Source: Hydrogenophaga palleronii NBRC 102513
Lineage (GTDB): Bacteria > Pseudomonadota > Gammaproteobacteria > Burkholderiales > Burkholderiaceae_C
Assembly: GCF_001571225.1 (NCBI RefSeq)
Contig: NZ_BCTJ01000020.1
Location: 1-64,000 of the forward strand
DNA length: 64,000 nucleotides
Reading direction: 5' to 3'
The notes below the pieces were generated by a model. That model ran no database searches, was not told the origin of the DNA, and worked only from the letters and a program-made list of their open reading frames with translations. Made by a program: the position numbers and the translations under genes. Shown here one piece after another: positions 1,994-17,236 of this stretch. Each line of letters begins with the position of its first letter. Within the stretch, counting starts at the first letter, position 1.

Positions 1994-2449
1994 TCAGCGG
2001 GGCAGGTACATCGTCGCTTCGACTTCGATCAGGGCGTCGTCGCTCGGCAGGAAGCGCGACACCTCCAGCACGGTGCTCACCGGTGGCTGCCCGGGGTAGA
2101 ACAGGCCACGCACGCGGTTGTACTGCGCGTAGTGCGGCAGGTGCCGGAAGTACTGCACCAGCTTGACCACATCGTCCATCTTTCCGCCGTGTTCTTCGGC
2201 GATGGCCCGGATGCGGTCGAGAACGAACCAGCTTTGCGCCACGATGGGCGCCTCGAACACGTCCACCGACATCTGGCCGGTGACGTAGCCCAGCCCGCGC
2301 AGCGGCGGCAGCGCTTCGGCGGGAAGCTCCTCGTAACGGCTCACGGTCTGGCGGGTGGTGGGGTTGACCGCCACCACGCCGCTCAGGAACACGAAATCGC
2401 CAACGCGTCGGGCGGCCGCGTAGTGGGCCATGGGGGTGCCGGTGCTCAT
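1994..2449 (-). CDS. RidA/YjgF/YER057c/UK114-family protein lacking the catalytic Arg
   Basis: 151 residues with the RidA fold pattern: FVFLSGVV near the N-terminus and VEATMYLP at the end. RidA enzymes deaminate reactive enamines/imines using an Arg in a P-[AV]-R-[ST] motif. Here the equivalent segment is QPPVSTVLEV (121-130) with Val124 in the Arg position, so imine deaminase activity is doubtful; it may belong to a Rid subgroup with another role. It is the last gene of the leftward eight-gene operon, 28 bases after the FAD-linked oxidase. RidA-like proteins are frequent in ring-nitrogen catabolism (RutC of the uracil pathway), which fits the rest of the operon. The substrate is unknown. 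Confidence 0.85.
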   Translation of the reverse strand: MSTGTPMAHYAAARRVGDFVFLSGVVAVNPTTRQTVSRYEELPAEALPPLRGLGYVTGQMSVDVFEAPIVAQSWFVLDRIRAIAEEHGGKMDDVVKLVQYFRHLPHYAQYNRVRGLFYPGQPPVSTVLEVSRFLPSDDALIEVEATMYLPR

Positions 2450-2477
2450 GGGGGTTCTCCGTGTGAAGGTGCGGTGC

Positions 2478-3836
2478 TCAGCCGGGCAGGCCCCAGGCGC
2501 GCATCTTGCCCGGGTTCAGCAGACCGGCGGGGTCGAAACGTTTTTTCATGTCGATCACGTTCTGCGGCAGGTCTCCACCCACCTTGCCTTCTTCGATGAT
2601 GAAGGTGTGCGGGTTGTTCACGCGGATGCCGTTGTCGCGGAAGATCTGGATGATCTCGTTCAGGCGTTCCTCGGTGGTGAAGCGCACCAGCGGCAACGAG
2701 GTGCAGGTGGTGAAGCCGTCCATGCTGCGCAGGAACTCCACGTGCATCAGCACCTCGTCGCCGAACAGCGAGCGAATGGTGCGCACCTGGTCCAGGTGTT
2801 TGCCGGGCGTGAAGGTGGTCTGCAGGTAGGTCAGGCCCTTGTCGACCTTGAGCGCGTTCAGCGTGGTGTGGTTCCAGCAGTACTCCACCAGCGTGTGGTG
2901 CTGCGCTTTCACCTCGTCGGCCGTGCGGCGGTAGGTCACCTTGCCGCCGTGTGCCGCGGCCACCTGCAGTGCCGCCGCTTCGGAGAACTCGGCCACCAGC
3001 ACCAGCGCCGCGTGGCAGCCCTTGGGCAGGTACTCGGCCAGCGGCGTCATGTAGGCCGGCACCGGGTCGGCCAGCACGGCGATGTTCTTCTTCACGATGC
3101 CGGGGCCGTGGGCCAGGGCGTTGCCGAAGTCGAGCGCGCGGTCGCCGTCTTCGAACGTGACGATCATCTCCAGCCACGGGTGGGCTGGCGCGAGCGCCAT
3201 CTCCACCTCGAGCACCAGGCCGTTGGTGCCCCAGAGGTGGTGCATCAGCAGGGCTTCGGGGCCACGCAGTTCCACCACTTGCGGCTCGGCTTCGATGCTC
3301 ATGGCACGGATGCCGATGATGTTGCCGGCGGCGCCGATGGGGCCGTAGTTGATCGAACCCGCACCACCGAAGCCGCCGCTGAACAGGCCGCCCAGCGAGG
3401 CGCTGCGGAAGGTGGAGGGGATGCAGCGCAGCTCCCAGCCCATGGGGCGGGTGGCGGTGTCGAAGTCACCGAGGCGGATGCCGGCCTGCGCGCGGCCGAC
3501 GCCGGGGCGCGACCAGAGGAAGGCGTTGTAGCCGCTCATGTCCAGGACCACGCCACCGTGCAGCGGTGTGGACTGGCCGTAGTTGCCGGTGCCCGCGCCA
3601 CGCAGGGTGAGCGGGATGTTGCGGCGCGCGCAGGCGCTGGCCACCTTGCGAATCTCTTCTTCGGTGCGCGGCTTGACGACGATGTCGGCGCGCTTGCCGA
3701 CCAGCTGGCGCTTGAGCACCGGGCTGAACCAGGAGAAGTCTTGCGACAGGCGGCCCACCTTCAGGGGGTCGGTGATCCAGTCGAGGTCGGGCAGCTCGTG
3801 CTGCAGTTGTTCGATGGGCGTTTGAGGGGCGTTCAT
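2478..3836 (-). CDS. FAD-linked oxidase (GlcD/VAO family)
   Basis: 452 residues. The N-terminal half is a FAD-binding PCMH domain: IVVKPRTEEEIRKV (about 51-64) followed by LRGAGTGNYGQSTPLHGGVV, the pyrophosphate-binding loop typical of GlcD-like oxidases. The C-terminus ends with FDPAGLLNPGKM, the usual family ending. Such enzymes oxidise 2-hydroxy acids or similar substrates and pass electrons to quinone, cytochrome or oxygen. ATG at 3836 is preceded by a weak GAAAGA. It lies between the ABC permease (24 bases upstream) and the ridA-like gene (28 bases downstream), so it is probably co-transcribed with an importer and serves the imported compound. No FeS (GlcF-like) partner is encoded nearby. 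The substrate cannot be told from sequence. Confidence 0.88.
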   Translation of the reverse strand: MNAPQTPIEQLQHELPDLDWITDPLKVGRLSQDFSWFSPVLKRQLVGKRADIVVKPRTEEEIRKVASACARRNIPLTLRGAGTGNYGQSTPLHGGVVLDMSGYNAFLWSRPGVGRAQAGIRLGDFDTATRPMGWELRCIPSTFRSASLGGLFSGGFGGAGSINYGPIGAAGNIIGIRAMSIEAEPQVVELRGPEALLMHHLWGTNGLVLEVEMALAPAHPWLEMIVTFEDGDRALDFGNALAHGPGIVKKNIAVLADPVPAYMTPLAEYLPKGCHAALVLVAEFSEAAALQVAAAHGGKVTYRRTADEVKAQHHTLVEYCWNHTTLNALKVDKGLTYLQTTFTPGKHLDQVRTIRSLFGDEVLMHVEFLRSMDGFTTCTSLPLVRFTTEERLNEIIQIFRDNGIRVNNPHTFIIEEGKVGGDLPQNVIDMKKRFDPAGLLNPGKMRAWGLPG

Positions 3837-3860
3837 GGCGTGTCTTTCGGAAACGGTGGA

Positions 3861-4673
3861 TCAGTCCTGTGCGATTTCGCTGGCGTGCCAGGAACCCAGC
3901 GACACCTTGGTCAGCCAGGCCATGAGCACGAAGAGGAAAACGCCGGCGAACGAGATCAGCAGCAGCGCGGCGAACATGCGCGGGATGTCGAGCTGGTAAC
4001 CGGCCATCAGGATCTGGTAGGCCAGACCGGTGTTGGTGCCGCCGGTGCCGGCCACGAACTCGGCCACCACGGCGCCGATCAGCGCCAGGCCCGAGGAGAT
4101 GCGCAGGCCGCCGAAGAAGTAGGGCAGCGCGCTCGGGATGCGCAGGCGCCACAGGATCTGGCCGCGCGTGGCACGGTTCATCTTGAAGTAGCTCTGCAGG
4201 TCGGGGTCGACGCTGCGCAGGCCCAGCGTGGTGTTGGAGATGATGGGGAACAGCGCCACCAGCGCGGAACACACCACCAGCGAGGCCGTCGGCTGTTTGA
4301 CCCAGATGATGATCAGCGGGGCAATCGCCACGATGGGCGTGACCTGCAGCAGCACGGCATACGGGAACAGCGCGGTCTCGATCAGGCGGCTCTGCACGAA
4401 CAGGAAGGAGATCAGCACCCCGACCACCACCGCGAGGATGAAGGACAGCACGGTGATCTTCATGGTGATCACCAGGGAGTTGAACAGCGTGCCCCAATCC
4501 TTGATCAGGGTCTCCATCATCAGGCCGGGCGAGGGGATCAGGTACGGCGGCAGCTCGAAGCCGACCACCAGGCCCTGCCACGCAGCGATCAGGACGATGG
4601 CGACCAGCGCCGGGTACAGGATGCGCTGCACGCGCGGCTGTTTCAGGAAGGGGGTGTTGTGCGTCGTGTTCAT
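3861..4673 (-). CDS. ABC transporter permease (SsuC/TauC type)
   Basis: 270 residues, about six hydrophobic segments, single permease of the BPD/TauC-SsuC type. The cytoplasmic EAA-like loop is visible as SYFKMNRATRGQILWRLRIP (about 158-177), where the permease contacts the ATPase. Its ATG overlaps the stop codon of the ATPase gene (ATGA), so translation is probably coupled. With the ATPase and the NMT1/THI5-like binding protein it forms one importer; relatives take up sulfonates, nitrate, riboflavin or pyrimidine precursors. The setting among amidohydrolase and RidA genes suggests a nitrogen heterocycle, which is inference. Confidence 0.92.
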   Translation of the reverse strand: MNTTHNTPFLKQPRVQRILYPALVAIVLIAAWQGLVVGFELPPYLIPSPGLMMETLIKDWGTLFNSLVITMKITVLSFILAVVVGVLISFLFVQSRLIETALFPYAVLLQVTPIVAIAPLIIIWVKQPTASLVVCSALVALFPIISNTTLGLRSVDPDLQSYFKMNRATRGQILWRLRIPSALPYFFGGLRISSGLALIGAVVAEFVAGTGGTNTGLAYQILMAGYQLDIPRMFAALLLISFAGVFLFVLMAWLTKVSLGSWHASEIAQD

Positions 4674-5491
4674 GCGCGGGCGTCCTCGGTGGTGTCACGG
4701 CTGGCGCGCAGCAGGCTTTCCTGCAGTTGCTTGGCGTGGCGGCTGAATTCGGTGGAGACCATGAAGTCCGGGCTGCGTGGGTAGGGTTCGTCGATGTGGA
4801 ACTCTTCCACGATGCGGCCCGGGCGCGCGGCCATCATCACCACACGGCTGGAGAGGAACACCGACTCGTGGATCGAGTGGGTGACGAACACCACGGTGAG
4901 GTTCTTCTTCTGCCAGAGTTCGAGCAGGTCGGCGTCGAGCTTGTGGCGCGTGATTTCATCGAGCGCACCGAAGGGTTCGTCCATCAGCAGCAGGGTCGGC
5001 TCGACCACCAGGCCACGCGCGATCGACACGCGCATCTGCATGCCGCCCGACAGCGCACGCGGCAAGACCTTGGCGAACTTGGACAGGCCCACCAGCGCCA
5101 GCGCATCGGCGACGCGTGCGTCGGCCTCGGCACGTGGCACACCGGCCAGGTCCAGCGGCAGGCGCACATTGGTCTGCACGTTGGCCCAGGGCATCAGCGT
5201 CGGTGCCTGGAACACGAAGGACAGGCGATGGCCCGACTTCTCCAACTGGTTGACACCCTGGCCCCACAGCTTGAGGCTGCCGCTGGTGGGTTCCAGCAGG
5301 CCGGCCACCATCTTGAGCAGCGTGCTCTTGCCGCAGCCCGAGGGGCCGAGCAAGGTCACGAATTCGCCTTCGCGAACTTGCAGGTCCACCGGCTGCAAGG
5401 CCACGGTGCCGTTGGGGTAGGTTTTCTGAACGCCCTGGATATCGATCGCCAGGGTGTTGTTGGACGCTTGGTCTGTCTTCGTCGTCGTCAT
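4670..5491 (-). CDS. ABC transporter ATP-binding protein (SsuB/TauB type)
   Basis: 273 residues from the chosen ATG at 5491 (protein start MTTTKTDQ); an in-frame GTG at 5548 would add 19 poorly conserved-looking residues and was not preferred. Walker A is GPSGCGKST, the signature is LSGGMQMRVSIAR, Walker B is LLLMDEPFGALDE and the switch His is in FVTHSIHESVFL. These are the hallmarks of the nitrate/sulfonate/taurine subfamily. The gene overlaps the permease by 4 bases and follows the binding-protein gene by 84 bases. It powers uptake across the inner membrane for the catabolic operon. Confidence 0.95.
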   Translation of the reverse strand: MTTTKTDQASNNTLAIDIQGVQKTYPNGTVALQPVDLQVREGEFVTLLGPSGCGKSTLLKMVAGLLEPTSGSLKLWGQGVNQLEKSGHRLSFVFQAPTLMPWANVQTNVRLPLDLAGVPRAEADARVADALALVGLSKFAKVLPRALSGGMQMRVSIARGLVVEPTLLLMDEPFGALDEITRHKLDADLLELWQKKNLTVVFVTHSIHESVFLSSRVVMMAARPGRIVEEFHIDEPYPRSPDFMVSTEFSRHAKQLQESLLRASRDTTEDARA

Positions 5492-5575
5492 GTGATGTTC
5501 GTGGGCTGGAAGCGGATGCAGGCCGGTGCGCCAGCCGAAGCGGCGCACCGGTGCGAGGCGCGTTGACGGGTCAGG

Positions 5576-6574
5576 TCAGGGCAGGACCTTGGCCTCGCGG
5601 GAGATGTCGAAGCGGTAGGCCTGGTCGACGTTGACCTTGGCCGGGTCGATCATCTCGTTCTCCACCAGGAAGGCGTGCGTCTTCATCAGGCGTTCGCGCG
5701 TGATCACGCCGATGCCCAGCTTGGCCGCGTCGCCGCTGGTGATGATGCCCATCTCCTTGATCTTGCCGATGCCGTAGTTGAGCTGGTCATCGGTCATGTT
5801 GGGGTTGTCCTTCTTGATCAGGGCGTTGGCCGGCGCGGGGTCGGCCAGGTAGCTCTTGTAGCCTTCGGCGGTGGCTTTCACGAAGGCGGTCACGGCCTTC
5901 TCACGGTCCTTCACCGTCTTCTCCATGCAGGAGATCAGGTTGGCGTAGGGTGGGTAGCCCTGGTCGGCCAGCAGGAAGGTGTTGACCTTCACGCCCGCCT
6001 TCTGGATGGCGAAGGGCTCGGACGAGAGGAAGCCCATCTGCACGATGTTCTTGTCGGCAACGAAGGGCTGGATGTTGTAGGTGTAGGGGCGCACCTGCGA
6101 GTCGGTGTAGCCGTACTTGCCTTTGAGCCAGGACCACATGCCGCGCATCGCGGTGGGGGCGATCAGGATGGTCTTGCCCTTCATGTCCTCGAAGGACTTG
6201 ACGTCTTCGTGGGCGATCAGCACCTGCGGGTCTTTCTGGAAGATCGCCGCCACGTTGACGATGGGCAGGCCGTTGCCGCGCGCCACCATCATCTGCGTGT
6301 CGGTCGCGCCCATGATGCAGTCGGCCTGGCCGGCGGCCATGACCTGGATGATGTTGATCTGCGGGCCACCCATCTTGATGGTCACGTCCAGGCCGTGCTT
6401 CTTGTAGATGCCGTTGGCAATCGCCTGGTAGTAGCCGCCGTGTTCGGCCTGTGCGTACCAGTTGGTCATGAAGGTGAACTTTTCCTGCGCCTGGGCGGCG
6501 GTCAGGGTCAGCACACCCAGGGCGGTGGCGCTCAGGGCGCGGCACAGGCGGGGCATTGTGGAAGCAGCGGTCAT
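5576..6574 (-). CDS. ABC transporter substrate-binding protein (NMT1/THI5-like)
   Basis: 332 residues with a signal peptide (residues 1 to about 29, cleavage after TAAQAQ). The mature start EKFTFMTNWYAQAEHGGYYQ is the typical opening of the NMT1/THI5-like periplasmic proteins. These bind thiamine-pyrimidine precursors, riboflavin, sulfonates and other small aromatic or heterocyclic compounds. A GQADCIMGATD segment (about 77-87) is the usual hinge-side loop. ATG 6574 is preceded by an AAGG about nine bases away. It is the first gene of the importer set, just downstream of the creatininase-family gene. Its ligand is the best handle on the substrate of the whole operon. Confidence 0.92.
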   Translation of the reverse strand: MTAASTMPRLCRALSATALGVLTLTAAQAQEKFTFMTNWYAQAEHGGYYQAIANGIYKKHGLDVTIKMGGPQINIIQVMAAGQADCIMGATDTQMMVARGNGLPIVNVAAIFQKDPQVLIAHEDVKSFEDMKGKTILIAPTAMRGMWSWLKGKYGYTDSQVRPYTYNIQPFVADKNIVQMGFLSSEPFAIQKAGVKVNTFLLADQGYPPYANLISCMEKTVKDREKAVTAFVKATAEGYKSYLADPAPANALIKKDNPNMTDDQLNYGIGKIKEMGIITSGDAAKLGIGVITRERLMKTHAFLVENEMIDPAKVNVDQAYRFDISREAKVLP

Positions 6575-6657
6575 GGCAGGCCTTTTTGTCGAAGGGTGGG
6601 GTGGGGCGAGGTGGCGCGAGGGGAGGAAAACGGAAACGAAAAAACAGTAAGCAGGTT

Positions 6658-7515
6658 TCAGTCCAGGGTCTGCTGGATGTGGCCGGTGTGGTGGCCACGT
6701 TCCCAGGTCGCTTCGTCGCGAACGACCCAGCGCATGGTGTAGAGCTCGGTGATGGCCTGGACCCAGCTATCGGCCAGGCTGTCGAGGATGGCTTCACCCT
6801 GTTCGCGGGTGGCGGTGGTGGGGTCGCCGATGACGCCGCTGGGGCCGAAGTCGCGCGCCACCCAGGCACAGGCCGGGCGGCCGTCGGCCGAGAGCGTCTT
6901 GCTCGGGAACGGGGGCGGGAAGTAGGCGGCGGCGCGCTCCATGTGCACGGTGTCGGGCGCCAGCGCGAGCATCAGCGCGGTTTCCGAATGGCCGGCGTGC
7001 ATCGAGAGCTTGCGCTCCTGGTCGCTGATGAACTTGCCCGAGACGTTGGGCACGCGCGAGACACCGTAGGGCACGACGACAAAGTCGCCATGGCGCAGGC
7101 GCAGTTCACGCGCCGCCATCTCCAGCACCTGCGGCTGGCCGCCGTGGCCGTTGGCGAACACCAGCTTGCGAAAGCCCGAGCGGTAGACCGACTCGCCGAG
7201 TTCGATCATGGTCGACAGCAGCGTGGTGCCGGTCAGCGTCATGGTGCCGGCGAAGTGCAGGTGCTCTTCGGACTTGCCGTAGGTGATGGGCGGCAGGCCG
7301 AAGGCGCGGATCTCGGCGGGCAGGCGCTCGAAGGCCTTGCCGATCACGCCGGCGGCGATCACCGTGTCCACCGAGCAGGGCAGGTGCGGGCCGTGCTGTT
7401 CCGTGGCGCCCACCGGCAGCACGATGACCGTGTTCTCGCGGTCCGGCAGCGCGGTGATTTCCGTCCAGGCCAAGTAGGGCAGGAAACGGTGGGGAGGGAA
7501 GTAGCCGTGCATCAT
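6658..7515 (-). CDS. Creatininase (creatinine amidohydrolase) family protein
   Basis: 285 residues. Family motifs: LPVGATEQHGPHLP with Glu39 and His41, SVD with Asp50, and FANGHGG with His124. The metal-site Glu that follows in Pseudomonas creatininase (NGHxE) is replaced by Gly here, while Glu178 in HAGHSETALM matches the later conserved Glu of the wider family. The wider family includes formamidopyrimidine deformylases and the MftE peptidase, so hydrolysis of a cyclic amide or formamide is likely but true creatininase activity is not assured. It sits between the amidohydrolase and the importer genes in the same operon. Confidence 0.85.
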   Translation of the reverse strand: MMHGYFPPHRFLPYLAWTEITALPDRENTVIVLPVGATEQHGPHLPCSVDTVIAAGVIGKAFERLPAEIRAFGLPPITYGKSEEHLHFAGTMTLTGTTLLSTMIELGESVYRSGFRKLVFANGHGGQPQVLEMAARELRLRHGDFVVVPYGVSRVPNVSGKFISDQERKLSMHAGHSETALMLALAPDTVHMERAAAYFPPPFPSKTLSADGRPACAWVARDFGPSGVIGDPTTATREQGEAILDSLADSWVQAITELYTMRWVVRDEATWERGHHTGHIQQTLD

Positions 7516-7535
7516 GGGGCGGGGTCCTTGGGAGG

Positions 7536-8810
7536 TCAGTCGGAGGCGAGAAGATGGCCCTGGCGCAACACGCTGCGCGCCGCGCTGCGTGACGGCCAGG
7601 CGTGGGCGTCGCTGTCGTGAAACACCACCAGGTCGGCGCTGGCGCCTTCCAGCGTGGGGCGCGCCAGCGGGTGGCGCAGCAGCCAGTCGCTGCGGCAGAG
7701 GGCGTCGGACCAGAGGTCGAAAGGGCTGTCGAGCTGGCCGGTGAGCGCGCCCGCCTGCATGGCTTCGAGCGGGTCCAGGCTGCCGGCGCGGCAGAACGGG
7801 TCTTGCACGTTGTCGCTGGCGAACAGCAGCGGAATGCCGTGCGCGCGCGCTTCCTTCACCAGCGTGAGGCCGCGCAGTCGCGGCGTGCGGCCGGTCACCG
7901 CGTCCTGCAGCAGCAGGTTGGTGATGGGCAATGAGATCAGCGTGATGGGCGCGCGCGCCACCGCTTCCAGCGTGGCCTGCACGCGGGCCTCGTCCTGCGC
8001 GGCGAGGGCGCAGTTGTGGCCGCAGACCACCCGGCCGCCAAAGCCGATCTTGCGCAGCAGGCCGGCAACAAAGGCCAGGCCCTGTGCGTCGGGGTTGAGT
8101 TCTTCGTCAACGTGCAGGTCCAGGTCCAGGTCCACCGCCTGCGCGGCCAGCACCAGGTTGCGCAGGGCGGCGGCGTCCCAGTTGCTGGAGTGCACGAAAC
8201 CACCGAGCAGCGCGTGTGGCCCGGTCTCGGCCACGCTGCGCGTCAGGCGCAGGGCATCGTCGGCGTTCTGGAACGGCGCCAGTTTGATCAGGGCCACCTG
8301 TTCAAGGTGGACGCGGCCGCGCCATTCGGCCGCGAGCTCCGTCATCACCTGCCAGGCGAGTGGCGGCGTCTGCGGGTCCCACCAGTCGATGTGGGTGCGC
8401 ATGTGGGTGGTGCCGGCCTGCCAGGCCCACTGCAGGCCTTTTTCGGCGCGTGCGCGCAGGTCAGCATGGGTCCAGTGCGCGCGGTCGCTGATGACGGCGT
8501 CGATGGCACCGAGCAGGCCGGGTTTCGCCGCGCCCATGCGCGGCAGGATGAAGGCCTTGTCCAGGTGGGTATGCGCGTCCACGAAGCCCGGCAGCACCGG
8601 CGCGCCTTGCACATCCCAGTCGCCTTGCGCCACCGGCGTGGCCGCCGTCATGGGCAGCACGCGGGCGACACGGCCTGCGGCGAGCTCGATGCGCGCGAGC
8701 GATGGTGTGTGGCCCTGCACCGGCCAGTCGGGCGCCAGCAGCCAGCGCGGCAGGCGCGCGTTGCTGATCACCTCGGGAGCGGCAGGAGGGCGTGAGGGCG
8801 GCAGGCTCAT
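7536..8810 (-). CDS. Cytosine-deaminase-family amidohydrolase
   Basis: 424 residues from ATG 8810, eight bases after the upstream reductase stop. The protein resembles E. coli CodA along its length. Metal and catalytic residues all appear present: HTH (His80, His82), LHVDEE (His233, Glu236), CGHNC (His265) and ASDNVQDP (Asp333), plus a CodA-like RLRGLTLVKEARAHGI segment. This family deaminates cytosine, isoguanine, creatinine or related cyclic amidines, releasing ammonia. The longer open frame reaching upstream of 8810 is a shadow of the reductase gene. Its place between a creatininase-family protein and a reductase, with hydantoinase genes nearby, favours a ring amidine rather than housekeeping cytosine salvage. 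Confidence 0.9.
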   Translation of the reverse strand: MSLPPSRPPAAPEVISNARLPRWLLAPDWPVQGHTPSLARIELAAGRVARVLPMTAATPVAQGDWDVQGAPVLPGFVDAHTHLDKAFILPRMGAAKPGLLGAIDAVISDRAHWTHADLRARAEKGLQWAWQAGTTHMRTHIDWWDPQTPPLAWQVMTELAAEWRGRVHLEQVALIKLAPFQNADDALRLTRSVAETGPHALLGGFVHSSNWDAAALRNLVLAAQAVDLDLDLHVDEELNPDAQGLAFVAGLLRKIGFGGRVVCGHNCALAAQDEARVQATLEAVARAPITLISLPITNLLLQDAVTGRTPRLRGLTLVKEARAHGIPLLFASDNVQDPFCRAGSLDPLEAMQAGALTGQLDSPFDLWSDALCRSDWLLRHPLARPTLEGASADLVVFHDSDAHAWPSRSAARSVLRQGHLLASD

Positions 8811-8818
8811 GGGGCGGG

Positions 8819-9850
8819 TCAGAGGTCCAGGGTCAGCGTGGGCGTGCGGCTGCGCGAGCAGCAGATGGCGATGTGCGTCGCGCGCTCGTCTTCGGTCAGG
8901 CAGAAGTCCTGGTGATCGGGTGTGCCGTCCAGGTAGGGCGTGATGCAGGAGCCGCAGATGCCTTGTTCGCACACGGTGTCCACACGCACGCCCGCGCTTT
9001 GCAGCACGTGGGCGATGTTCTGCTCGGGCCCCACCGTCAGCCGCTTCTGGCTGCGCGCCAGCACCACCTCGAAACCGGCCGTTGCCGGTGCCGCGGCGCT
9101 GGCCGCTTCGCTCTTGGGTGGTGCGTTGAAGTACTCGAAGTGCACACGCTCGGCCGGCCAGTGCTGGCAGGCTTCGCGCACGTGCTGCATGAAACCTTCC
9201 GGCCCGCAGTAGTAGGCGTGCGAGCCGGCTGGCGCGGCCGCCACCAGCGAGGCCGGGCTGGTCCGCACGGGGGCGTCGTCGAAGTGGGTCTGCACACGGT
9301 CGCGCCAGGGCGCGGTGTCGAGCACGTTCTTGAGCGGCAGGTACGCTGCGCTGCGCGCAAACACCGCGAGGGTGAACGGCTCGCCACGCGCATGCAGGGC
9401 GTGCGCCATGGCCACCATCGGCGTCATGCCGATGCCGCCGCCGAGCAGCAGGTGGTGTGGCGCCTGCGGCGCGAGCGGGAACAGGTTGCGTGGCGCGCCG
9501 ATGCGCAGGATTTCGCCTTCGCGCACCCAGCTGTGCACCGCGCGCGAACCGCCGCGGCCACGGTCTTCGCGCTTGACCGCGATCTCGTAGGCCTCGTGGC
9601 TGCGCGCCGGGTCGCCGCAAAGCGAGTAGCTGCGCACCAGGTCACCGGGCAGGTACACGTCGATGTGCGCGCCGGCCTCGCAGGTGGGCAGGGGGTGGCC
9701 GTCGATGCGCTGCAGCACGAAGCCGCTGACCTCTGAGGTGTGGCGCAGCACCTGGGATACCCGGATCGTGATCTCGCCACGCGGGGTTGGGGTCTGTGAA
9801 GAGGGGGTGTCCGGGACAACTGGTGTGGCCGCGGTGGAAAGGGAGCTCAA
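8819..9850 (-). CDS. Phthalate-dioxygenase-reductase/VanB-type flavin and 2Fe-2S oxidoreductase
   Basis: 343 residues. An FAD/FMN-binding domain comes first (RSYSLCGDP, about 73-81), then an NAD-binding domain (LLLGGGIGMTPMVAMAHAL) and a C-terminal plant-type 2Fe-2S ferredoxin with CEQGICGSC and a fourth Cys in DFCL. Such reductases feed electrons from NAD(P)H to Rieske oxygenases or P450s. No oxygenase gene is present in the window. The start appears to be TTG at 9850: no in-frame ATG or GTG lies between it and the first domain, and the Shine-Dalgarno is weak. It is the first gene of the eight-gene operon and its promoter carries the RutR-type operator. Confidence 0.92.
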   Translation of the reverse strand: MSSLSTAATPVVPDTPSSQTPTPRGEITIRVSQVLRHTSEVSGFVLQRIDGHPLPTCEAGAHIDVYLPGDLVRSYSLCGDPARSHEAYEIAVKREDRGRGGSRAVHSWVREGEILRIGAPRNLFPLAPQAPHHLLLGGGIGMTPMVAMAHALHARGEPFTLAVFARSAAYLPLKNVLDTAPWRDRVQTHFDDAPVRTSPASLVAAAPAGSHAYYCGPEGFMQHVREACQHWPAERVHFEYFNAPPKSEAASAAAPATAGFEVVLARSQKRLTVGPEQNIAHVLQSAGVRVDTVCEQGICGSCITPYLDGTPDHQDFCLTEDERATHIAICCSRSRTPTLTLDL

Positions 9851-9866
9851 TTTCTGACCGTTTAAT

Positions 9867-9882
9867 TTGACTATTTGGTCAG
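9867..9882. promoter_or_regulatory. RutR-type operator over the operon promoter
   Basis: The 16-mer TTGACTATTTGGTCAG matches the E. coli RutR box (TTGACCA-NN-TGGTCAA) at all but two defined positions. On the minus strand it starts within the -10 hexamer and covers the likely transcription start, 16 bases before the TTG codon of the reductase gene. That placement fits repression. A RutR homologue is encoded immediately to the right. A further CTGACC lies at 9854-9859 and could be an extra half-site. Confidence 0.7.
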
Positions 9883-9886
9883 TATA
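9881..9886 (-). promoter_or_regulatory. Candidate -10 element of the eight-gene catabolic operon
   Basis: Minus-strand TATACT (five of six matches to TATAAT) within a locally AT-rich stretch. The -35 region is poor (TTTTCC at 17-base spacing), which would suit a regulated promoter. It would give a leader of roughly two dozen bases. Confidence 0.5.
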
Positions 9887-10027
9887 AGAAAAAAAGACCG
9901 TCGGAAAACCGTGAAAACCCTCGGCTTTTCATCGGATGCAACAGGGCAACAGGCGGTGGCGTGGTGTTGGTGGCGCGGCGCTGAAAGACGGCGCCGCCTT
10001 GAGGCAGGGTGAGGTGTTGCGCGGTGT

Positions 10028-10711
10028 TCAGTCGCGCATCAGGCCGCAGCCGCGAAGCACGAACGGCACCAGGTCGTGCGCCACCGTCTCGCGGTCCAGC
10101 GGTGCCGGGTCGCGTTCGCTGCCGCAGATCTCGCGCACCTGCAGTGCAAAGTCGGCGTGGTGCTGCGTCATGGCCCAGATGTGCATCAGCAGCAGGTGGG
10201 CGTTCATCGGCCGCATCAGGCCGCGTGCGATCCAGCCGTTGATGATGGCCACTTCCTTCTGGATCCAGATGCGTGCATTGGGCCAGTAGCGGTCCAGGTT
10301 GTGGCCTCCGTCGAGGATCTCGCGCGTGAAGATGCGCGACACCGTGGGCTGGTCGAACGCGTGGTCGAGCTTCTGCCGGATGTAGTGCGCCAGGATGTCG
10401 GCCGGCTCGGTGAGCCCGGGCGGCGCGAACTCGATCTTCCAGGCCTTCATCACGGAGTCGAGCAGCTCGCTGTAGAGCTCTTCCTTGCCGGTGATGTAGT
10501 AGTGCAGCTGCGGTTTGGTGAGGCCCGCACGCTCGGCGATGGCCTGGGTGGACGTGCCCTTGAGGCCATGCAGGCTGAACTCTTCGATGGCGGCTTCGCG
10601 GATGGCGGCCAGGATGCGCTGTCGGCTTTCCCGCACGGCGCGAACGGGTCGAGCGGGCGTGTGGGCATCGGCGCGGGGCGTGGGCCGCGCCGGAGATCGT
10701 GCTGCTGTCAT
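10028..10711 (-). CDS. TetR-family regulator, RutR-like
   Basis: 227 residues from ATG 10711; an in-frame ATG at 10768 would add 19 residues and neither has a clear ribosome binding site. A TetR helix-turn-helix is at the N-terminus: ILAAIREAAIEEFSLHGLKG, then AIAERAGLTKPQLHYYITGK. The C-terminal domain strongly resembles RutR, the uracil-sensing regulator, in EYIRLKL-like and IWAMTQHHADFALQV segments (compare IWASTQHYADFAVQV of E. coli RutR). A pyrimidine-like or hydantoin-like ligand is therefore plausible. A matching operator lies 150 bases downstream at the head of the eight-gene operon. The gene follows the second operon by 110 bases and may be read from it. Confidence 0.88.
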   Translation of the reverse strand: MTAARSPARPTPRADAHTPARPVRAVRESRQRILAAIREAAIEEFSLHGLKGTSTQAIAERAGLTKPQLHYYITGKEELYSELLDSVMKAWKIEFAPPGLTEPADILAHYIRQKLDHAFDQPTVSRIFTREILDGGHNLDRYWPNARIWIQKEVAIINGWIARGLMRPMNAHLLLMHIWAMTQHHADFALQVREICGSERDPAPLDRETVAHDLVPFVLRGCGLMRD

Positions 10712-10821: not shown

Positions 10822-11226
10822 TCAGCGCGGCGGACGCAGGGCGGTGGCTTCGATCTCCACCAGCACCGGGGCAATCAGGCCCGAGATCACGGTCGAGCGT
10901 GCCGGCGCGGTGGCGGCCGGGAAACGTTCGGCGTACGCGGCGTTGAAGCCGGGGTAGTCCTGTGCGTTGACCAGCCACACCGTGGTCTTCACCACGTCGG
11001 CCAGCGTGCAGCCCGCGCGCTTGAGGATGTCCTCGATCAGGTCCAGCGTGTAGTGGGTCTGGCTCGCGATGTCTTCGCCCGCGGGCTGGCCGTTGCGCAT
11101 TGGCACCTGCCCGGCGACGAAGACCAAGCGGTCTTCGACCACCACGGCGGGCGAAATGGGTTGCACCAGGCCAGCCCGTTGCACGGGCGGCCCCACGTAT
11201 TCAATGCCGGGGTTTGGGGTTGTCAT
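10822..11226 (-). CDS. RidA-family protein with conserved Arg
   Basis: 134 residues. RidA signature at the C-terminus: APARSTV (Arg110) and VLVEIEATAL (Glu124). Unlike the paralogue at 1994-2449, this one keeps the Arg needed for 2-aminoacrylate or imine deamination, so it is likely an active enamine/imine deaminase. It could clear the imino acid made by the DadA-like oxidase of the same operon. It is the last structural gene of the leftward hydantoinase operon, 16 bases after the Bug receptor gene. Confidence 0.9.
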   Translation of the reverse strand: MTTPNPGIEYVGPPVQRAGLVQPISPAVVVEDRLVFVAGQVPMRNGQPAGEDIASQTHYTLDLIEDILKRAGCTLADVVKTTVWLVNAQDYPGFNAAYAERFPAATAPARSTVISGLIAPVLVEIEATALRPPR

Positions 11227-11230
11227 TCGA

Positions 11231-11246
11231 TCGGTCAGTCGGTCAA
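11231..11246. repeat. Short direct repeat TCGGTCAG/TCGGTCAA
   Basis: Two copies of TCGGTCA eight bases apart lie over the stop of the Bug gene and just before the ridA start. On the minus strand they read TTGACCGACTGACC, i.e. two half-sites resembling the RutR box but in direct, not inverted, orientation. Functional meaning is uncertain. Confidence 0.3.
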
Positions 11247-12244
11247 TCGGGTTTGGCGCCGGAGGCCTTCACGATGCCGGCCCACTTGCTGGCCTCGGCT
11301 TCGATGAAGTTCTTGTAGTCGGTGGCGCTGCTGCCGCCGAGCTTGAAGCCGCGCGAGACGAAGTAGTCCTGGATGTCGGGGCTTGCCAGCGCGGCGTTCA
11401 CGTCCTTGTTGAGCCGTTCCACCACGGCGGCGGGTGTGCCGGGTGGCGCGAACAGGCCTTGCCACGACAGGGCTTCAAAACCGGGGTAACCGCTTTCGGC
11501 CACCGTCGGCACGTTCGGGTACAGCGGGTGCCGTTCTTTCGAGGTCACCGCGATCGGCACCAGCTTGCCGGCTGCGATCTGCGGCTGCACCACCAGGATG
11601 TCGCCAAACATCAGGTCGATCTGGCCACCCATGAGGTCGCTCAGCGCGCCGGCGCTGCCGCGGTACGGGATGTGCAGCAGCGACGCCTTGGTGGCCAGCT
11701 TGAACATCTCGCCCGTGAGGTGCATGGAGGTGCCGCTGCCGGCCGAGCCGTAGGTGATGGAGCCAGGCCGTGCGCGCGCGGCGGCGATCAGTTCGGGCAG
11801 CGTCTTCGCTGGCAGGTTCGGGTTCTTCACGATCAGCAGCGGAGCGCTGACCACCGCGGTGACCGGCGTGAAACCCTTGACCACGTCGTAGGGCAGGTTC
11901 GGGTACAGCGCACCGGCGATGCCGTTGCTGCCGGTCACGCCGAGCAGCAGCGTGTAGCCGTCGGGTTCGGATTTGGAGACGTGGTCTGCACCGACGGTGC
12001 CACCGGCGCCGGGCCGGTTGTCCACCAGCACGGTCTGCTTCCAGGTGGTGCCGAGTTTTTCGCCCAGCTTGCGCGCCAGCAGGTCGGTGCTGCCACCGGG
12101 CGGGAACGGCACGACGATGCGCACCAGCTTGTTGGGGTAACTCTGCGCCAGGGCCCCCGCGGGTGCGGCGAGGGCGCCGAGGCCGACGGTGGCGGCGAGT
12201 GCGAGTGCGCTCAGGGTGCGCGATGGAAAGTTGATGCGGGTCAT
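11243..12244 (-). CDS. Bug-family (TctC-like) periplasmic solute receptor
   Basis: 333 residues from ATG 12244 (MTRINFPSRT), preceded by GAAAGTGG; an ATG at 12265 is possible but has no ribosome binding site. A signal peptide ends at GALAQ (about residue 34). The mature protein opens SYPNKLVRIVVPFPPGGSTD, the hallmark of Bug proteins, and contains the VLVDNRPGAGG loop. Bug proteins bind carboxylates, amino acids or cyclic amides and normally serve TctAB permeases; none is encoded here, as is common in Comamonadaceae. Its position after hyuA-hyuB suggests it binds the hydantoinase substrate or product. Confidence 0.93.
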   Translation of the reverse strand: MTRINFPSRTLSALALAATVGLGALAAPAGALAQSYPNKLVRIVVPFPPGGSTDLLARKLGEKLGTTWKQTVLVDNRPGAGGTVGADHVSKSEPDGYTLLLGVTGSNGIAGALYPNLPYDVVKGFTPVTAVVSAPLLIVKNPNLPAKTLPELIAAARARPGSITYGSAGSGTSMHLTGEMFKLATKASLLHIPYRGSAGALSDLMGGQIDLMFGDILVVQPQIAAGKLVPIAVTSKERHPLYPNVPTVAESGYPGFEALSWQGLFAPPGTPAAVVERLNKDVNAALASPDIQDYFVSRGFKLGGSSATDYKNFIEAEASKWAGIVKASGAKPD

Positions 12245-12292
12245 GTGGATGCCACTTTCATTCAAAGGGGTTGGGGGTTGGAGGTTGGTGCC

Positions 12293-13867
12293 TCAGCGTT
12301 CTGCTGCGGCACCCCATGCGCCTCCTCCGGCCGTTTCAATGACCAGTCGGTCTCCGGCCGACCACTCGACACGTGCCCGTGCGGGCAGGACGTCAACGTG
12401 GCCATCGGCTCTTTCGATGCGCGCGGCCGATGGTGAACCATCGCCGCCGCCTTGGCTGCCGCGTGCGCGGCTGACATGGCGTTCGCCCCGGTAGGAAACG
12501 CTGCCATGTCCTTCTAGCAATTCGTATACCCGGCGCACGCCGTGGCCGCCTTCGAAGCGGCCTACGCCGCCAGAACCTTCGCGGATGGCGTAGGTCTTCA
12601 CGCGCAGCGGCGCTTCGGCTTCGATCACTTCCACCGGCGTGTTGCGGGCGTTGCCGACGTCGGTGGAGATGCCGCTGGTGCCATCGCCGTGTGCGCTTGC
12701 GCCGGCACCGCTGGCGATGATCTCGGTCATCAGCCAGCGCTGGCCGTCTGCCGCTGTGCCGCCGAGCGACAGCACCGTGGCCACACCCGCGTTGGACGCC
12801 AGCGGTTCACGCGCCGCGCCGAGCGACCAGGCACTGAGCATGGCGTTGCAGGCGAGCTTGAGCGTGGCGGTGCGTGCGTTCACCGCCGCCGGCAGGCGCG
12901 GGTTGACCACGCTGCCTTCGGGCAACACCCAGGTGGCGGGTGCGAGGCAGCCGGCGTTGTTCGGCGCCTGTGGTGCGAGCGAACGCATGAAGAACAGGAT
13001 GGCCGACATCATGCTCGACGGCGATGCGTTGACCGGGCCACGCGTCTGTGGCGACGAGCCGGTGAAATCGATCGTGAGCGTATCGCCCTGCTTGTGCAGC
13101 CGCACCGCGATCTGCACCGGCGTGGTGTCGATGCCGTCGCCGTCGAGCTGGTCCTGCCAGTGCCAGCTGCCATCGGGCACGGCGAGCAGTGCGTCGCGGG
13201 TCATGCGTTCGGACTGCGCCAGCAGCGCATCACACACCGCGTGGAAATTGCTGCCTGTGCGTGCCTGCAGCGCCGCCGTTTCGTGCGCACCCAGGCTCAC
13301 GGCCGACCACTGCGCGTTCAGGTCGCCCAGCAGGTTGCCCGGCGTGCGGCTGTTGGCGGTGAGCAGGGTTTCGATGTTGGGGTCGACCACACCCGCGCTG
13401 CGCCAGCGCACCGGCGGGATGCGCAGGCCTTCCTGGTGGATGTCGGTGGCGTTGGGCGGGATCGAACCCGCTGCCATGCCGCCCACGTCCTGGTGGTGCA
13501 GGATGGCCGCGGCCAGGCCGATCACGGCGCCGTCGTGCACGATGGGGCGCACCACGATCAGGTCGGGCAGGTGGGTGCCGCCGGACCAGGGGTCGTTCAT
13601 CAGAAAGGCGTCGCCATCGGCCATCTGCGCGGCGGGAAAACGTTGCAGCACGCCGGCCACGGCCGGGATCAGCGAGCCCAGCAGCAGCGGCAGCGAACGC
13701 GCCTGCGCGAGCAGGCGGCCGTCGGGCAGGAAGACCGCCGCCGCGCAGTCGCCGCCTTCGCGTGCGATCGACGAGTAGGCCGCGCGCATCATGCGGCTCT
13801 GCATGCGGTCGACGATGCCTTGCAGCGCGAGCCGCACGGGCTCCATCAGGATCAGGTGCGTGTTCAT
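12293..13867 (-). CDS. hyuB: Hydantoinase/oxoprolinase subunit B
   Basis: 524 residues from ATG 13867, which overlaps the hyuA stop by 4 bases. The N-terminus (AYSSIAREGGDCAAAVFLPDGRLLAQ) and the segments FLMNDPWSGGTHLPDLIVV and LHHQDVGGMAAGSIPPNATD are characteristic of the HyuB/OplB family. With HyuA it forms an ATP-dependent amidohydrolase acting on hydantoins, N-methylhydantoin, 5-oxoproline or similar lactams. The far longer open frame extending right of 13867 is only a shadow of hyuA. The C-terminus (about 440-500) has the expected Gly-rich GGVGRFEGGHGV motif. Confidence 0.94.
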   Translation of the reverse strand: MNTHLILMEPVRLALQGIVDRMQSRMMRAAYSSIAREGGDCAAAVFLPDGRLLAQARSLPLLLGSLIPAVAGVLQRFPAAQMADGDAFLMNDPWSGGTHLPDLIVVRPIVHDGAVIGLAAAILHHQDVGGMAAGSIPPNATDIHQEGLRIPPVRWRSAGVVDPNIETLLTANSRTPGNLLGDLNAQWSAVSLGAHETAALQARTGSNFHAVCDALLAQSERMTRDALLAVPDGSWHWQDQLDGDGIDTTPVQIAVRLHKQGDTLTIDFTGSSPQTRGPVNASPSSMMSAILFFMRSLAPQAPNNAGCLAPATWVLPEGSVVNPRLPAAVNARTATLKLACNAMLSAWSLGAAREPLASNAGVATVLSLGGTAADGQRWLMTEIIASGAGASAHGDGTSGISTDVGNARNTPVEVIEAEAPLRVKTYAIREGSGGVGRFEGGHGVRRVYELLEGHGSVSYRGERHVSRARGSQGGGDGSPSAARIERADGHVDVLPARARVEWSAGDRLVIETAGGGAWGAAAER

Positions 13868-15825
13868 GCCGGTTCTCCCGTGGTTGCGGTGTGGGTCAGC
13901 AACAAGGAGCCATCGGCCTCCTGCAGCCATTGCCAGCCGGCCGGCACCCACACCGTGGTGGTGGCCGCAAACAAGGCCTGTGGACCGGTGCCGCGTGCTG
14001 CGCAGCCGTCCCACAGCGCGGCGTCGGGGCGCAGGTGCTTGGCGTTGATGCCGGGTTGGGGCACGGCTTGTTCGAACACGCCACGCAGCAGGCCCACCTG
14101 CGCGTCGCTGCGTGCCGGCATCTGGCCGCGCAAGGCTTCGTAGCGCGCCGCAAAGCGCGCTTGCAGCGTGGCCAGATCGTCCTCGGGCAACCAGGCCACT
14201 TCGACCGGGCTGCCCTGGCCGCGGTGCAGGATTTCGAGGCTCCAGCGGATCGCGGCGCACGGGGTGTCCGGTTGCAGTGCGTCGCGCAGCGCCACCAGCC
14301 CGGCCAAGCCATCGGCGGACAGCGGCAGGCTGCAGGCCTTCTCCACCGTCTGTGTGGGCGCCGATGCCAGCAGGCCGAGCGCGGCGACCACGCCGGCGTT
14401 GGCGATCACGCGCACCTGCGAAACGCCGGCAAGCTCGGCCACCTCTGCCACGTGTTGTGCACCACCGCCGCCGGCGGCCACCAGCAGGCAGTCGGCCGGA
14501 TGGATGTCGCGCTGGAAGGCGCGCATTTTCACGCTCTCGGCCATGGCGGTGGCGGCGGTTGCCACGATGGCCTGTGCCGCGTCGCGCACCGAGATGCCCA
14601 GCGGTTCGGCGATGTCGCGCGCCACGGCCGCTTCGGACAGGGCCAGGTCCAGCGTCACGCCTCCGGAGAGCCGCTGCGGCAACCGGCCCAACAGCAACAG
14701 GGCGTCGGTCAGCGTGGCGTTGGTGCCGCCCAGGCCATACGCGGCCGGGCCGGGCCAGGCGCCCTGGGAGCGTGGCCCCAGGCGCAACCCGCCGCCGGCG
14801 TTGACGCTGGCCAGGCTGCCACCGCCGATGGAGAGCGACTCCACATCGGCGCAGCGCAGCCGCAGCGTGAGATCGCCGCAGAGCAGGGTGTCGGTGAACA
14901 GCGGGCGGCCCGCTTCCAGAATGCCGATGTCGGTGCTGGTGCCGCCGACATCGATGGACATGACGACCTGCGCGGCATCGGTGTGCGGCAGGCTGGCGGC
15001 CACCCCTTGCAAGGCGGCGCAGGGGCCGGACATGGCCAGGGTGATCGGGCGCGCGAGCGCGTCCCGCCAGGGCGCGATGCCGCCTTCGGAACGCATCAGC
15101 TCGGGTGCGGGCAGGCCGCGCTCGGCCAGTGCGCCGCCGAGCGTCTGCAGGTACTGCTGCACCATGGGCTTGCTGTAGGCGTCGAAGGCGGTGGCGAGGA
15201 AACGCTCGAACTCGCGCGGCTTGGGATCGACGTCGCTCGAGATCGAGACCATCAGCGACGGTTGTGCCTCCAGCAGCCAGGCGCGCACCTGTTGCTCGTG
15301 CGCGGGCCGCAGGTGCGAGAACAGCAGGCACACCGCCACCGCGCGCACGCCGGCGGCGTGGATCTTCCGGGCCAGCGCCAGCACCTGGTCGCGGTCGAGC
15401 GCTTCGACCTCGGCGCCCTGGGCGTCCACGCGGCCGGCGATCTCGTGCCGCTGCGCCGCCGGGAACAGGCGGCGTTCGGGCGTGGGCGGCAAGACGGCGG
15501 CGGTGTACAGGTCGCGCCGGTCCTGGCGCGCCAGCGCCAGCACGTCGCGCATGCCGGTGTTGGTGAGCACGGCGATCGGGCCGTCGTTCTGTTCCAGCAG
15601 CAGGTTGGTGACGACGGTGGAGCCGTGCACGATGCGCGCGATCTGCGCGCTCTGAATGCCGTTCTCGTCCAGCATGCGCTGCACGGCCTGCAGGATCGGC
15701 TGCACGAGTTGGCCCGCTTCACGCGGGTGTTTGAGGCTTCGCAGCGCACCGTCCGTGGAGCAGGCCACCACGTCGATGAAGGTGCCGCCCATGTCGATGC
15801 CGATGGCCCAGCGCGTGGTGGTCAT
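13864..15825 (-). CDS. hyuA: Hydantoinase/oxoprolinase subunit A
   Basis: 653 residues. The acetate/sugar-kinase-like ATP fold shows twice: GIDMGGTFIDVV (9-20) and SIDVGGTSTDIGI (about 299-311). Further family motifs are IVHGSTVVTNLLLE, LMRSEGGI and LVAAGGGGAQH. HyuA binds ATP and, with HyuB, opens a cyclic amide ring with ATP hydrolysis. The pair is translationally coupled (ATGA). It starts nine bases after the DadA-like gene. Acetone carboxylase subunits are distant relatives, but no gamma subunit is present, so a hydantoinase/oxoprolinase role is favoured. The substrate is inferred only. Confidence 0.94.
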   Translation of the reverse strand: MTTTRWAIGIDMGGTFIDVVACSTDGALRSLKHPREAGQLVQPILQAVQRMLDENGIQSAQIARIVHGSTVVTNLLLEQNDGPIAVLTNTGMRDVLALARQDRRDLYTAAVLPPTPERRLFPAAQRHEIAGRVDAQGAEVEALDRDQVLALARKIHAAGVRAVAVCLLFSHLRPAHEQQVRAWLLEAQPSLMVSISSDVDPKPREFERFLATAFDAYSKPMVQQYLQTLGGALAERGLPAPELMRSEGGIAPWRDALARPITLAMSGPCAALQGVAASLPHTDAAQVVMSIDVGGTSTDIGILEAGRPLFTDTLLCGDLTLRLRCADVESLSIGGGSLASVNAGGGLRLGPRSQGAWPGPAAYGLGGTNATLTDALLLLGRLPQRLSGGVTLDLALSEAAVARDIAEPLGISVRDAAQAIVATAATAMAESVKMRAFQRDIHPADCLLVAAGGGGAQHVAEVAELAGVSQVRVIANAGVVAALGLLASAPTQTVEKACSLPLSADGLAGLVALRDALQPDTPCAAIRWSLEILHRGQGSPVEVAWLPEDDLATLQARFAARYEALRGQMPARSDAQVGLLRGVFEQAVPQPGINAKHLRPDAALWDGCAARGTGPQALFAATTTVWVPAGWQWLQEADGSLLLTHTATTGEPA

Positions 15826-15834
15826 GGCCGGCCC

Positions 15835-17073
15835 TCAGCGAAAACGTTTTGCACTGAAGGGCGACAGGTCCACCTGGGTGGCGCGACCGGCCACCAGGTG
15901 GGCCACCTCGCGGCCGGTGCTGGCGCCCATGCACATGCCCATGTGGCCGTGGCCGAAGGCCAGCCAGGCGTTGTCGGCCTGGCTGCTGCGGTCGATCACC
16001 GGCAGGCTGTCGGGCATGCAGGGGCGGTGCCCCATCCACTGCGTGACTTCCGAGGTGTCGAGGTGCGGGAACAGCAACTGCCCCTGGCGCAGCAGCGCCT
16101 GGGCGCGTGCGTAGTTGGGTGCCGGCTTGAGGCCGGCGAACTCCACCGTGCCGGCCAGCCGCAGGCCCATGGCCATGGGGTTGACCATGATGTTGTTCTC
16201 CGAGGCCATCACGGTGTGGCGCAGCTTCAGGTTGGAGCTGCGCACGGTGACGTGGTAACCGCGCTGGGTTTCCAGTGGCACGCGGTCGCCGAGCTGTTTC
16301 GCCAGCTGCCCCGACCAGGCGCCGGCGGCCACCACCACGCCATCGACCGCCAGCGGTTCACCGCTGTCCATGCGCAGGCCGGTGACGCGCCGGCCTTGGC
16401 GCTCGAAGCCGGTGACCGAACGGTGGTCGTGGCGCGCACCGTCGCGCACGCTCTGCGCCACCAGGGCCTTGACGAGTTGCGACGGGTCCAGCGTGGAGCC
16501 GTTGTCGGGCGCCAGGATGCCGAAGCGGAAACGGCCCTTGAGGTCGGGTTCGAGTTCTTCGAGCTCGTCGCGCTCCACGTTGACCAGGTTCACGCCCAGC
16601 GACTTGCGCAAGGCCATGCCCCATTTCCATTGGTCGGCGGCTTCGCGCGACGAATAGACATAGAGGCAGCCGCTGCGGCGCACCAGTGCACCGGCCTCGG
16701 CGTGCTGCAGCAGGGGCTCGTAGCACTCGAAGATGGGGCGCAACAAGGTCTGCAGCGCGGTTGCGATGCGCGTCACTTCTTGCGGCGTGGAGTGCTGCAA
16801 CATGCGCAGCAGCCAGGGCGCCACGCGCGGCAGGTAGGCGGTGCGGATGGTCAGCGGGCCGAGCGGATCAAGCAGCCAGCTCGGCACTTTCTTCCACATG
16901 TTGGGCATGCCCACCGGCAGGCAGGCGCTGGGCGACAGCGAGCCGGCATTGCCGAACGAGCAGGCTTCGCCCGGCTCGAGTGGGTCGACGAAGGTGATCT
17001 GGTGGCCGTCGCGCTGCAGCCAGGCGGCTGTGCAGGCGCCGACGATGCCTGTGCCAATGACGGCGATGTGCAT
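15835..17073 (-). CDS. FAD-dependent oxidoreductase, D-amino-acid dehydrogenase (DadA) type
   Basis: 412 residues of the DAO superfamily. The FAD-binding dinucleotide motif is at the very N-terminus (VIGTGIVGACTAAWLQRDGH, 4-23), followed by SFGNAGSLSPS typical of DadA. C-terminal WMGHRPCMPDSLPVIDRS and FGHGHMGMCMG complete the FAD site. The enzyme would oxidise a D-amino acid or N-substituted glycine (for example sarcosine) to an imino acid. It is the first gene of the leftward operon with hyuA and hyuB, which would supply such an amino acid after ring opening and decarbamoylation. A second paralogue is at 45393-46688. Confidence 0.92.
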   Translation of the reverse strand: MHIAVIGTGIVGACTAAWLQRDGHQITFVDPLEPGEACSFGNAGSLSPSACLPVGMPNMWKKVPSWLLDPLGPLTIRTAYLPRVAPWLLRMLQHSTPQEVTRIATALQTLLRPIFECYEPLLQHAEAGALVRRSGCLYVYSSREAADQWKWGMALRKSLGVNLVNVERDELEELEPDLKGRFRFGILAPDNGSTLDPSQLVKALVAQSVRDGARHDHRSVTGFERQGRRVTGLRMDSGEPLAVDGVVVAAGAWSGQLAKQLGDRVPLETQRGYHVTVRSSNLKLRHTVMASENNIMVNPMAMGLRLAGTVEFAGLKPAPNYARAQALLRQGQLLFPHLDTSEVTQWMGHRPCMPDSLPVIDRSSQADNAWLAFGHGHMGMCMGASTGREVAHLVAGRATQVDLSPFSAKRFR

Positions 17074-17117
17074 GGGGTCTGCGGACTCTCAGGGGGTGGA
17101 AGGGGGAGGCTCGCGGC

Positions 17118-17147
17118 ATTCTATGAACCGCCTTGTCTATCAGACAA
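17118..17147 (-). promoter_or_regulatory. Candidate promoter of the dadA-like/hyuAB operon
   Basis: On the minus strand TTGTCT (17142-17147) and TAGAAT (17118-17123) are 18 bases apart, a reasonable sigma-70 promoter. The -35 hexamer lies inside the LysR-type palindrome, so regulator binding would directly affect polymerase contact. Confidence 0.5.
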
Positions 17148-17148
17148 G
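17132..17148. promoter_or_regulatory. LysR-type operator palindrome
   Basis: CTTGTCTATCAGACAAG has perfect 7-base arms around ATC and contains the T-N11-A dyad of LysR-type boxes. It sits in the 163-base gap between the divergent dadA-like gene and lysR, 59 bases before the former and 89 before the latter. Binding by the adjacent LysR protein is inferred. Confidence 0.65.
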
Positions 17149-17236
17149 CCAATTCTTTTGATACATTCATCATGAAAATTGATGGAGGTGCATGCACGCA
17201 CCGCCGCCGTGACCCCAGCCATTTTCTGGTGCGCCC

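Follow-up and report, generated by a model that had tools for sequence, protein, structure and literature searches.

Which compound do the catabolic genes at positions 1994-17236 of contig NZ_BCTJ01000020.1 of Hydrogenophaga palleronii NBRC 102513 serve? They lie in a stretch of 64,000 nucleotides that we analysed as a whole (the window) and form two neighbouring operons, called here operon B (1994-10711) and operon A (10822-17073, from the RidA2 gene to the DadA-like gene). An earlier note, made from the sequence alone, had read both as one linked N-heterocycle pathway, with creatinine as its example. Family scans found the protein families that it named, and its general picture of a cluster for ring-nitrogen catabolism that has an importer, a RutR-like regulator, a cyclic-amidine type of deaminase and RidA is supported. 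The substrate we propose is another one: operon B is probably a cluster for the catabolism of pteridines, that is, of pterins or folate derivatives.

The conserved gene set of operon B

The genes of operon B are on the reverse strand. A RutR-like TetR regulator (10028-10711; TetR_C_3 and TetR_N domains) is followed by a VanB/PDR-type reductase with a C-terminal 2Fe-2S domain (8819-9850), a CodA-like amidohydrolase related to pterin deaminases (7536-8810) and a creatininase-family metallohydrolase (6658-7515; PF02633). An ABC importer comes next, composed of an NMT1/THI5-like substrate-binding protein (SBP; 5576-6574; PF09084), an ATPase (4670-5491, with its ATG start at 5491) and a BPD_transp_1 permease (3861-4673). 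A FAD_binding_4 flavoenzyme (FAD enzyme; 2478-3836) and, as final gene, the Rid-family protein RidA1 (1994-2449; PF01042) complete the set.

Co-occurrence of these genes, which the earlier note had proposed to check, was examined in 27 loci with a close deaminase (at least 46% identity), 80 loci with a distant one and 20 control regions of 20 kb, placed at hand-chosen round-number positions in genomes of the window's family. Not counted among the 27 close loci are the window itself, a near-copy of the pADP-1 region (L035), a short locus of 51% identity (G074) and the bulk of 625 plasmid records, of which six were retrieved; two that are counted, L043 and L044, lie on the same contig and overlap. 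The creatininase-family and FAD enzyme genes both stand beside the deaminase in 23 of the 27 close loci and in none of the controls. Counted singly, and with 24 of the 80 distant loci shorter than 18 kb, homologues were present in close and distant loci respectively as follows: creatininase-family protein in 26 and 54, FAD enzyme in 23 and 58, RidA1 in 20 and 36, reductase of either type in 25 and 45, and TetR in 22 and 40, each with 0/20 in the controls. The ATPase, Bug and LysR families carry little weight because they are common in the controls (8, 5 and 3 of 20). Four close loci have no FAD enzyme gene: three of them stop at a contig end, and the fourth, that of pADP-1, is also without the creatininase gene. 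Operon B is a unit conserved beyond chance, and its gene set spans alpha-, beta- and gammaproteobacteria, Klebsiella and Pantoea included.

Some variation was observed within this set. In many related clusters the reductase position is held instead by a flavodoxin-fold oxidoreductase, which in L048, L049 and L169 is joined by a stand-alone 2Fe-2S protein resembling the C-terminus of the window reductase. The relatives of operon B in Rahnella, Klebsiella pneumoniae and Pantoea (L036, L037 and L038) stand under a LysR regulator, not TetR; those of Rahnella and Klebsiella add a 2-oxoglutarate (2OG) oxygenase and a second amidohydrolase on the opposite strand, and the best PDB match of the Klebsiella amidohydrolase is 2PAJ. 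One genome (G105) carries two adjacent copies of operon B (L043 and L044), with deaminases 60% and 64% identical to that of the window.

A predicted RutR-like palindromic operator (9867-9882) lies 16 bases upstream of the called reductase start and agrees at 12 of 14 positions with what we take to be the RutR consensus. Among 24 intervals between the TetR gene and the next gene, one G105 interval being counted twice (L043 and L044), 11 scored at least 11/14 for this type of palindrome, against 0.1 expected from base shuffling. Pyrimidine pathways under Rut/RutR control share with the window a RutR-like regulator, an operator-like site and RidA-type proteins. However, the window proteins do not reach the equivalog cut-offs for RutR and RutC (for the regulator, 126.1 against 368 bits in TIGR03613 and 111.1 against 230), and neither RutA nor RutB had a match among the 16 window proteins scanned.

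Links to pterins and folate

The deaminase residues H80, H82, H233, E236, H265 and D333 align with E. coli CodA H61, H63, H214, E217, H246 and D313, in the numbering and with the catalytic roles that we take to hold for CodA, so that the complete active site described in the earlier note is indeed there. The metal and acid residues of this CodA-type site are invariant in both alignments examined; the window protein scores 310.9 bits against the cut-off of 403 of the cytosine deaminase equivalog PRK07583. Its link to pterins comes from Variovorax. The assayed pterin deaminase of Variovorax F1 converts folate and pteroate to their deamino forms, as given in the part of the text available (You et al. 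2022; PMC9513972). The F1/Arad3529 type of pterin deaminase (EC 3.5.4.11) is of the same amidohydrolase family as the window deaminase and has the same metal and acid residues.

The genes around pterin-deaminase-type genes are also those of the window. Among 26 such loci (L066-L091, 23 of them titled Variovorax), creatininase-family homologues are found in 20, the FAD enzyme in 21, RidA in 25 and a VanB-like reductase in 20. Most Variovorax loci have genes for TetR, reductase, SBP, FAD enzyme, permease, ATPase and the creatininase-family protein next to the deaminase, and the RidA beside most of these deaminases is 76-79% identical to RidA1. The available part of PMC9513972 gives the deaminase a length of 399 aa, into which the matched lengths in L066-L091 (380-403 codons) fit, and puts one primer at the gene start and the other within an 'endoribonuclease' gene downstream of it. 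The 5' primer was located at the deaminase start in 20 of the 31 loci L066-L096 with at most four mismatches. The 3' primer, which fits only when its printed letters are read 3'->5', opposite to the 5'->3' label, was located at the start of the next gene, RidA, in 21 of the 31 with at most two mismatches (exactly in 7). A primer search in 399 genomes of the family gave three one-mismatch matches.

Other proteins of operon B point in the same direction. The closest solved relative of the FAD enzyme is PDB 6V42, titled 'flavin oxygenase ... involved in folate catabolism'; full-length homology and fold agree, and the likeness to 6V42/6V43 is one of homology together with the title and molecule name of the entry. 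The creatininase-family protein reaches 102.7 bits, against a cut-off of 235 for the creatininase model TIGR04448, and also misses the TIGR03964 cut-off. In its alignment to 1q3k the creatininase motif NGHYEN, which we take to lie near the second metal and the substrate, is replaced by NGHGGQ. Judged from these features, it is probably a hydrolase other than creatininase proper, and its homologues adjoin pterin-deaminase-type genes. Four hybrid loci (L092, L093, L096 and L178) combine a Variovorax-type deaminase (39-42% identical to that of the window) with a window-type importer (SBP 57-60% and ATPase 70-71% identical; permease 66-68% in three, none being seen in L092, whose contig ends). Since these loci mix deaminase and importer types, the two kinds of deaminase probably act on a single class of substrate.

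Accessory genes were searched with queries drawn from members of the set themselves (L037, L043 and L047). A second deaminase is present in 6 of the 27 close loci, and those of L037 (whole) and L047 (part) both have as best PDB match 2PAJ, which we take to be isoxanthopterin deaminase and whose title names a Sargasso Sea sample. Amidohydrolases from the Sargasso Sea deaminate isoxanthopterin and pterin-6-carboxylate, according to the part of the source available (PMC5270733). A Rieske oxygenase was found in 4/27 and a 2OG-oxygenase homologue in 8/27 close loci, some with only about 30% identity. The annotation of a Rhizobium plasmid places a 'cytosine deaminase', a FAD oxidoreductase, an NAD(P)H oxidoreductase, a creatininase, an ABC importer and RidA together. 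In L212, from a Rhizobium brockwellii plasmid, the genes at 1-2678 carry the annotations PaoC, xanthine dehydrogenase subunit M and PaoA and stand directly beside the creatininase-deaminase-FAD enzyme cluster; they are candidates for pterin-aldehyde or ring oxidation.

Several observations weigh against a pteridine substrate. The Variovorax enzymes share only 37-40% identity with the window deaminase, which a FastTree phylogeny, built from sequences other than those of F1, S110 and Arad3529, puts in a separate, supported clade with a long stem; the substrate of the window enzyme may therefore have shifted to another pteridine or to another ring. F1 and S110 are absent from the titles of the loci, which are tied to the assayed enzyme by primers, neighbour gene and family. 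On plasmid pADP-1 of Pseudomonas sp. ADP (L033, 14959-16290), a 55% identical deaminase adjoins an ABC importer and the cyanuric-acid genes atzD-F, in a locus that has neither the creatininase gene nor that of the FAD enzyme. In most cyanobacterial loci the deaminase occurs alone, and 29 of the 80 distant loci are missing the creatininase or the FAD enzyme gene in the stretch available. The accessory genes are rare in the distant loci (2PAJ-type deaminase in 2, Rieske in 6, 2OG in 1 of 80). In the window genome, a search without positive control, which shows little, gave no 2PAJ-type deaminase, and no close Rieske partner was found (best 36%).

The earlier note did not recognise the gene set as a described system. 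That holds for the whole cluster, which none of the titles and abstract starts listed by our searches of open-licence PMC texts (15 of 215 matches in one search) describes; in the available text of PMC9513972 the words 'cluster' and 'creatinin' are absent and 'operon' occurs only in the reference list. It does not hold in full, in that homologous clusters point to pterins and folate. As far as these searches show, operon B belongs to a known but only partly described kind, folate/pterin catabolism.

Operon A and its association with operon B

Operon A, also on the reverse strand, encodes a DadA-like FAD amino-acid dehydrogenase (15835-17073; PF01266), HyuA (13864-15825; PF01968 and PF05378), HyuB (12293-13867; PF02538), a Bug/TctC-type receptor (11243-12244; PF03401) and RidA2 (10822-11226). 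A divergent LysR gene on the forward strand (17237-18172) has the same place in the homologous clusters of G082 and G177. HyuA and HyuB carry the complete Pfam domains of the HyuAB/5-oxoprolinase/caprolactamase family, with PDB 7hk5, 'N-methylhydantoinase', as the best match of HyuA (E 5.3e-86) and 5-oxoprolinase 6yra as the next. Against the caprolactamase cut-offs of 1000, they score 264.8 and 192.8 bits. The DadA-like protein is likewise below its cut-off (PRK00711, 213.7 against 383 bits); oxidative cleavage of folate by this enzyme was considered and left as unsupported.

The linkage of both operons, as claimed before, stands within the genus and not in the two other family genomes with HyuA. 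A scan of 200 family genomes gave HyuA in 3, one of which is the genome of the window. In G082, LysR-DadA-HyuA-HyuB-Bug-RidA2 occur with no deaminase match at E 1e-40, and in G177, LysR-DadA-HyuA-HyuB-Bug are on a different contig from operon B. To conclude from these two genomes that A and B are not linked would be wrong for the genus. In a sample of 60 genus genomes, HyuA is present in 6 and a close deaminase (at least 54%) in 9; in 6/6 genomes with HyuA both operons lie on one contig, a few kilobases apart, and five relatives keep the gene order of the window as far as their contigs reach, with an 867-aa opposite-strand frame between A and B in G423. In two of the remaining three close-deaminase genomes (G441 and G451), operon B has 2PAJ-type, Rieske and 2OG homologues as neighbours; the third (G402) ends at contig ends. 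Four genomes, window included, share the window flank, while G423 and G433 have other flanks (one side only was compared in G407 and G432). As the pair occurs in two genomic contexts, it has probably stayed together through relocation, and this co-retention favours, without proving, a shared use.

The earlier note had seen no N-carbamoyl-amino-acid hydrolase, and the 16 proteins scanned here gave none either; no search was aimed at N-carbamoylsarcosine amidases of the isochorismatase type in the rest of the genome. The sole match in the genome to TIGR01879, the hydantoinase/carbamoylase family, at E 1e-20 is on contig C11, near urate and HIU-hydrolase genes. Given this location and the lack of a carbamoylase in the cluster, a lactam would be a simpler substrate for operon A than a hydantoin. 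Operon A is probably a separate module that some members of the genus keep next to B, and its HyuAB most likely opens a cyclic amide with ATP. The C11 region (L211), with Xan_ur_permease, HIUase and Urate_ox_N domains near the TIGR01879 match, is likely a purine/ureide locus.

Further along the window, a second Bug-like receptor was noted by eye at 21215-22246, with a homologue in the genus relative G432. GC content is lower around 34802-40000 (0.598 at 36001-40000), near tRNA-Val and tRNA-Leu genes.

Proposed pathway and alternative substrates

The gene content, conservation, family links and operator-like site described above are the observations from which we propose a substrate, an order of steps and a role for each enzyme. 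The NMT1-type ABC importer would bring in a pterin, and the CodA-like enzyme would strip its 2-amino group to give lumazine. A redox step by the FAD enzyme, a 6V42-type flavin oxygenase, and the reductase would follow. The creatininase-family hydrolase may then cleave an amide of the oxidised pyrazine ring, and RidA1 would hydrolyse an enamine or imine, while the RutR-like repressor would sense a uracil-like ring. For operon A, HyuAB could open a cyclic amide to an amino acid with ATP, the DadA-like enzyme oxidise it and RidA2 remove the imine, with no carbamoylase needed. The ring-opening role is suggested by the creatininase-family protein ArfB, which reportedly cleaves the acylamino group of a diaminopyrimidinone, and an old bacterial activity on tetrahydroxypteridine, without an assigned gene, is similar in kind of reaction. 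Of the steps proposed for operon B, deamination is the one with an assayed relative in the available text of PMC9513972. A fuller picture, which we advance only tentatively and hold less likely than not, would make the conserved set the core of a bacterial pathway for degrading the pteridine ring that has so far gone undescribed as a whole, with the creatininase-family enzyme opening the oxidised pyrazine ring and HyuAB-DadA-RidA recruited in part of Hydrogenophaga for a downstream ring fragment.

HyuA stands near operon B in only 5 of the 27 close and 1 of the 80 distant loci, which speaks against the creatinine route of the earlier note, where the deaminase would yield N-methylhydantoin, HyuAB would open it, and oxidation and removal of the imine by RidA would follow. 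The creatinine deaminase/N-methylhydantoinase pathway has a deaminase and HyuAB in one neighbourhood, as the window does, but operon B is mostly without HyuAB nearby. The adjacency of A and B in six genus genomes and two contexts, and the name of the best HyuA match, agree with this route. Set against them are the missed creatininase cut-offs, the single TIGR01879 gene near urate genes, and FAD enzyme and deaminase families that point to folate and pterins. The earlier note had held that homologous clusters assigned to an unrelated substrate would count against it, and these homologues point to pterins and folate, not creatinine; the creatinine route is very improbable.

Rather unlikely, though far less so, is the degradation by operon B of some other amino-substituted pyrimidine, triazine or purine-like ring, such as isocytosine, oxidised guanine or a thiamine pyrimidine. 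The best PDB match of the SBP is 3ix1, a pyrimidine-precursor binding protein, the deaminase fold is closest to cytosine deaminase, and the RutR-like regulator, the relative on the triazine plasmid pADP-1 and the distinct deaminase clade fit as well. However, CodA Gln156, which we take to be a substrate contact, is not kept (Lys in the window deaminase, Pro in the Variovorax row), the hybrid loci share their importer type with pterin-deaminase-type genes, and the 6V42 title names folate catabolism. About as doubtful is the view that A and B are joined in a single pteridine route in this section of the genus, A handling a later ring fragment in place of the accessory oxygenase and 2PAJ-type deaminase module of sister genomes. 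It would account for operon A in six of the nine close-deaminase genomes, for the accessory genes beside B in G441 and G451 instead, and for the pair in two different contexts. Yet operon A comes with a separate regulator and receptor, is found without B in G082 and on a contig apart from B in G177, and is parted from B by the opposite-strand frame in G423, and two contexts imply few independent events.

With a pteridine as the probable substrate of operon B, its likely identity becomes less mysterious, and its value lies in concrete enzymes for a little-mapped pathway. The breakdown of folate in the environment is not fully elucidated beyond hydrolysis and deamination, according to the available part of PMC9513972. 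The gene set names candidates for further steps, namely the flavin oxygenase, a creatininase-family ring opener, RidA and the Rieske/2OG oxygenases, together with a testable regulator and importer. It also flags 'cytosine deaminase' and 'creatininase' as likely mis-annotations in such clusters.

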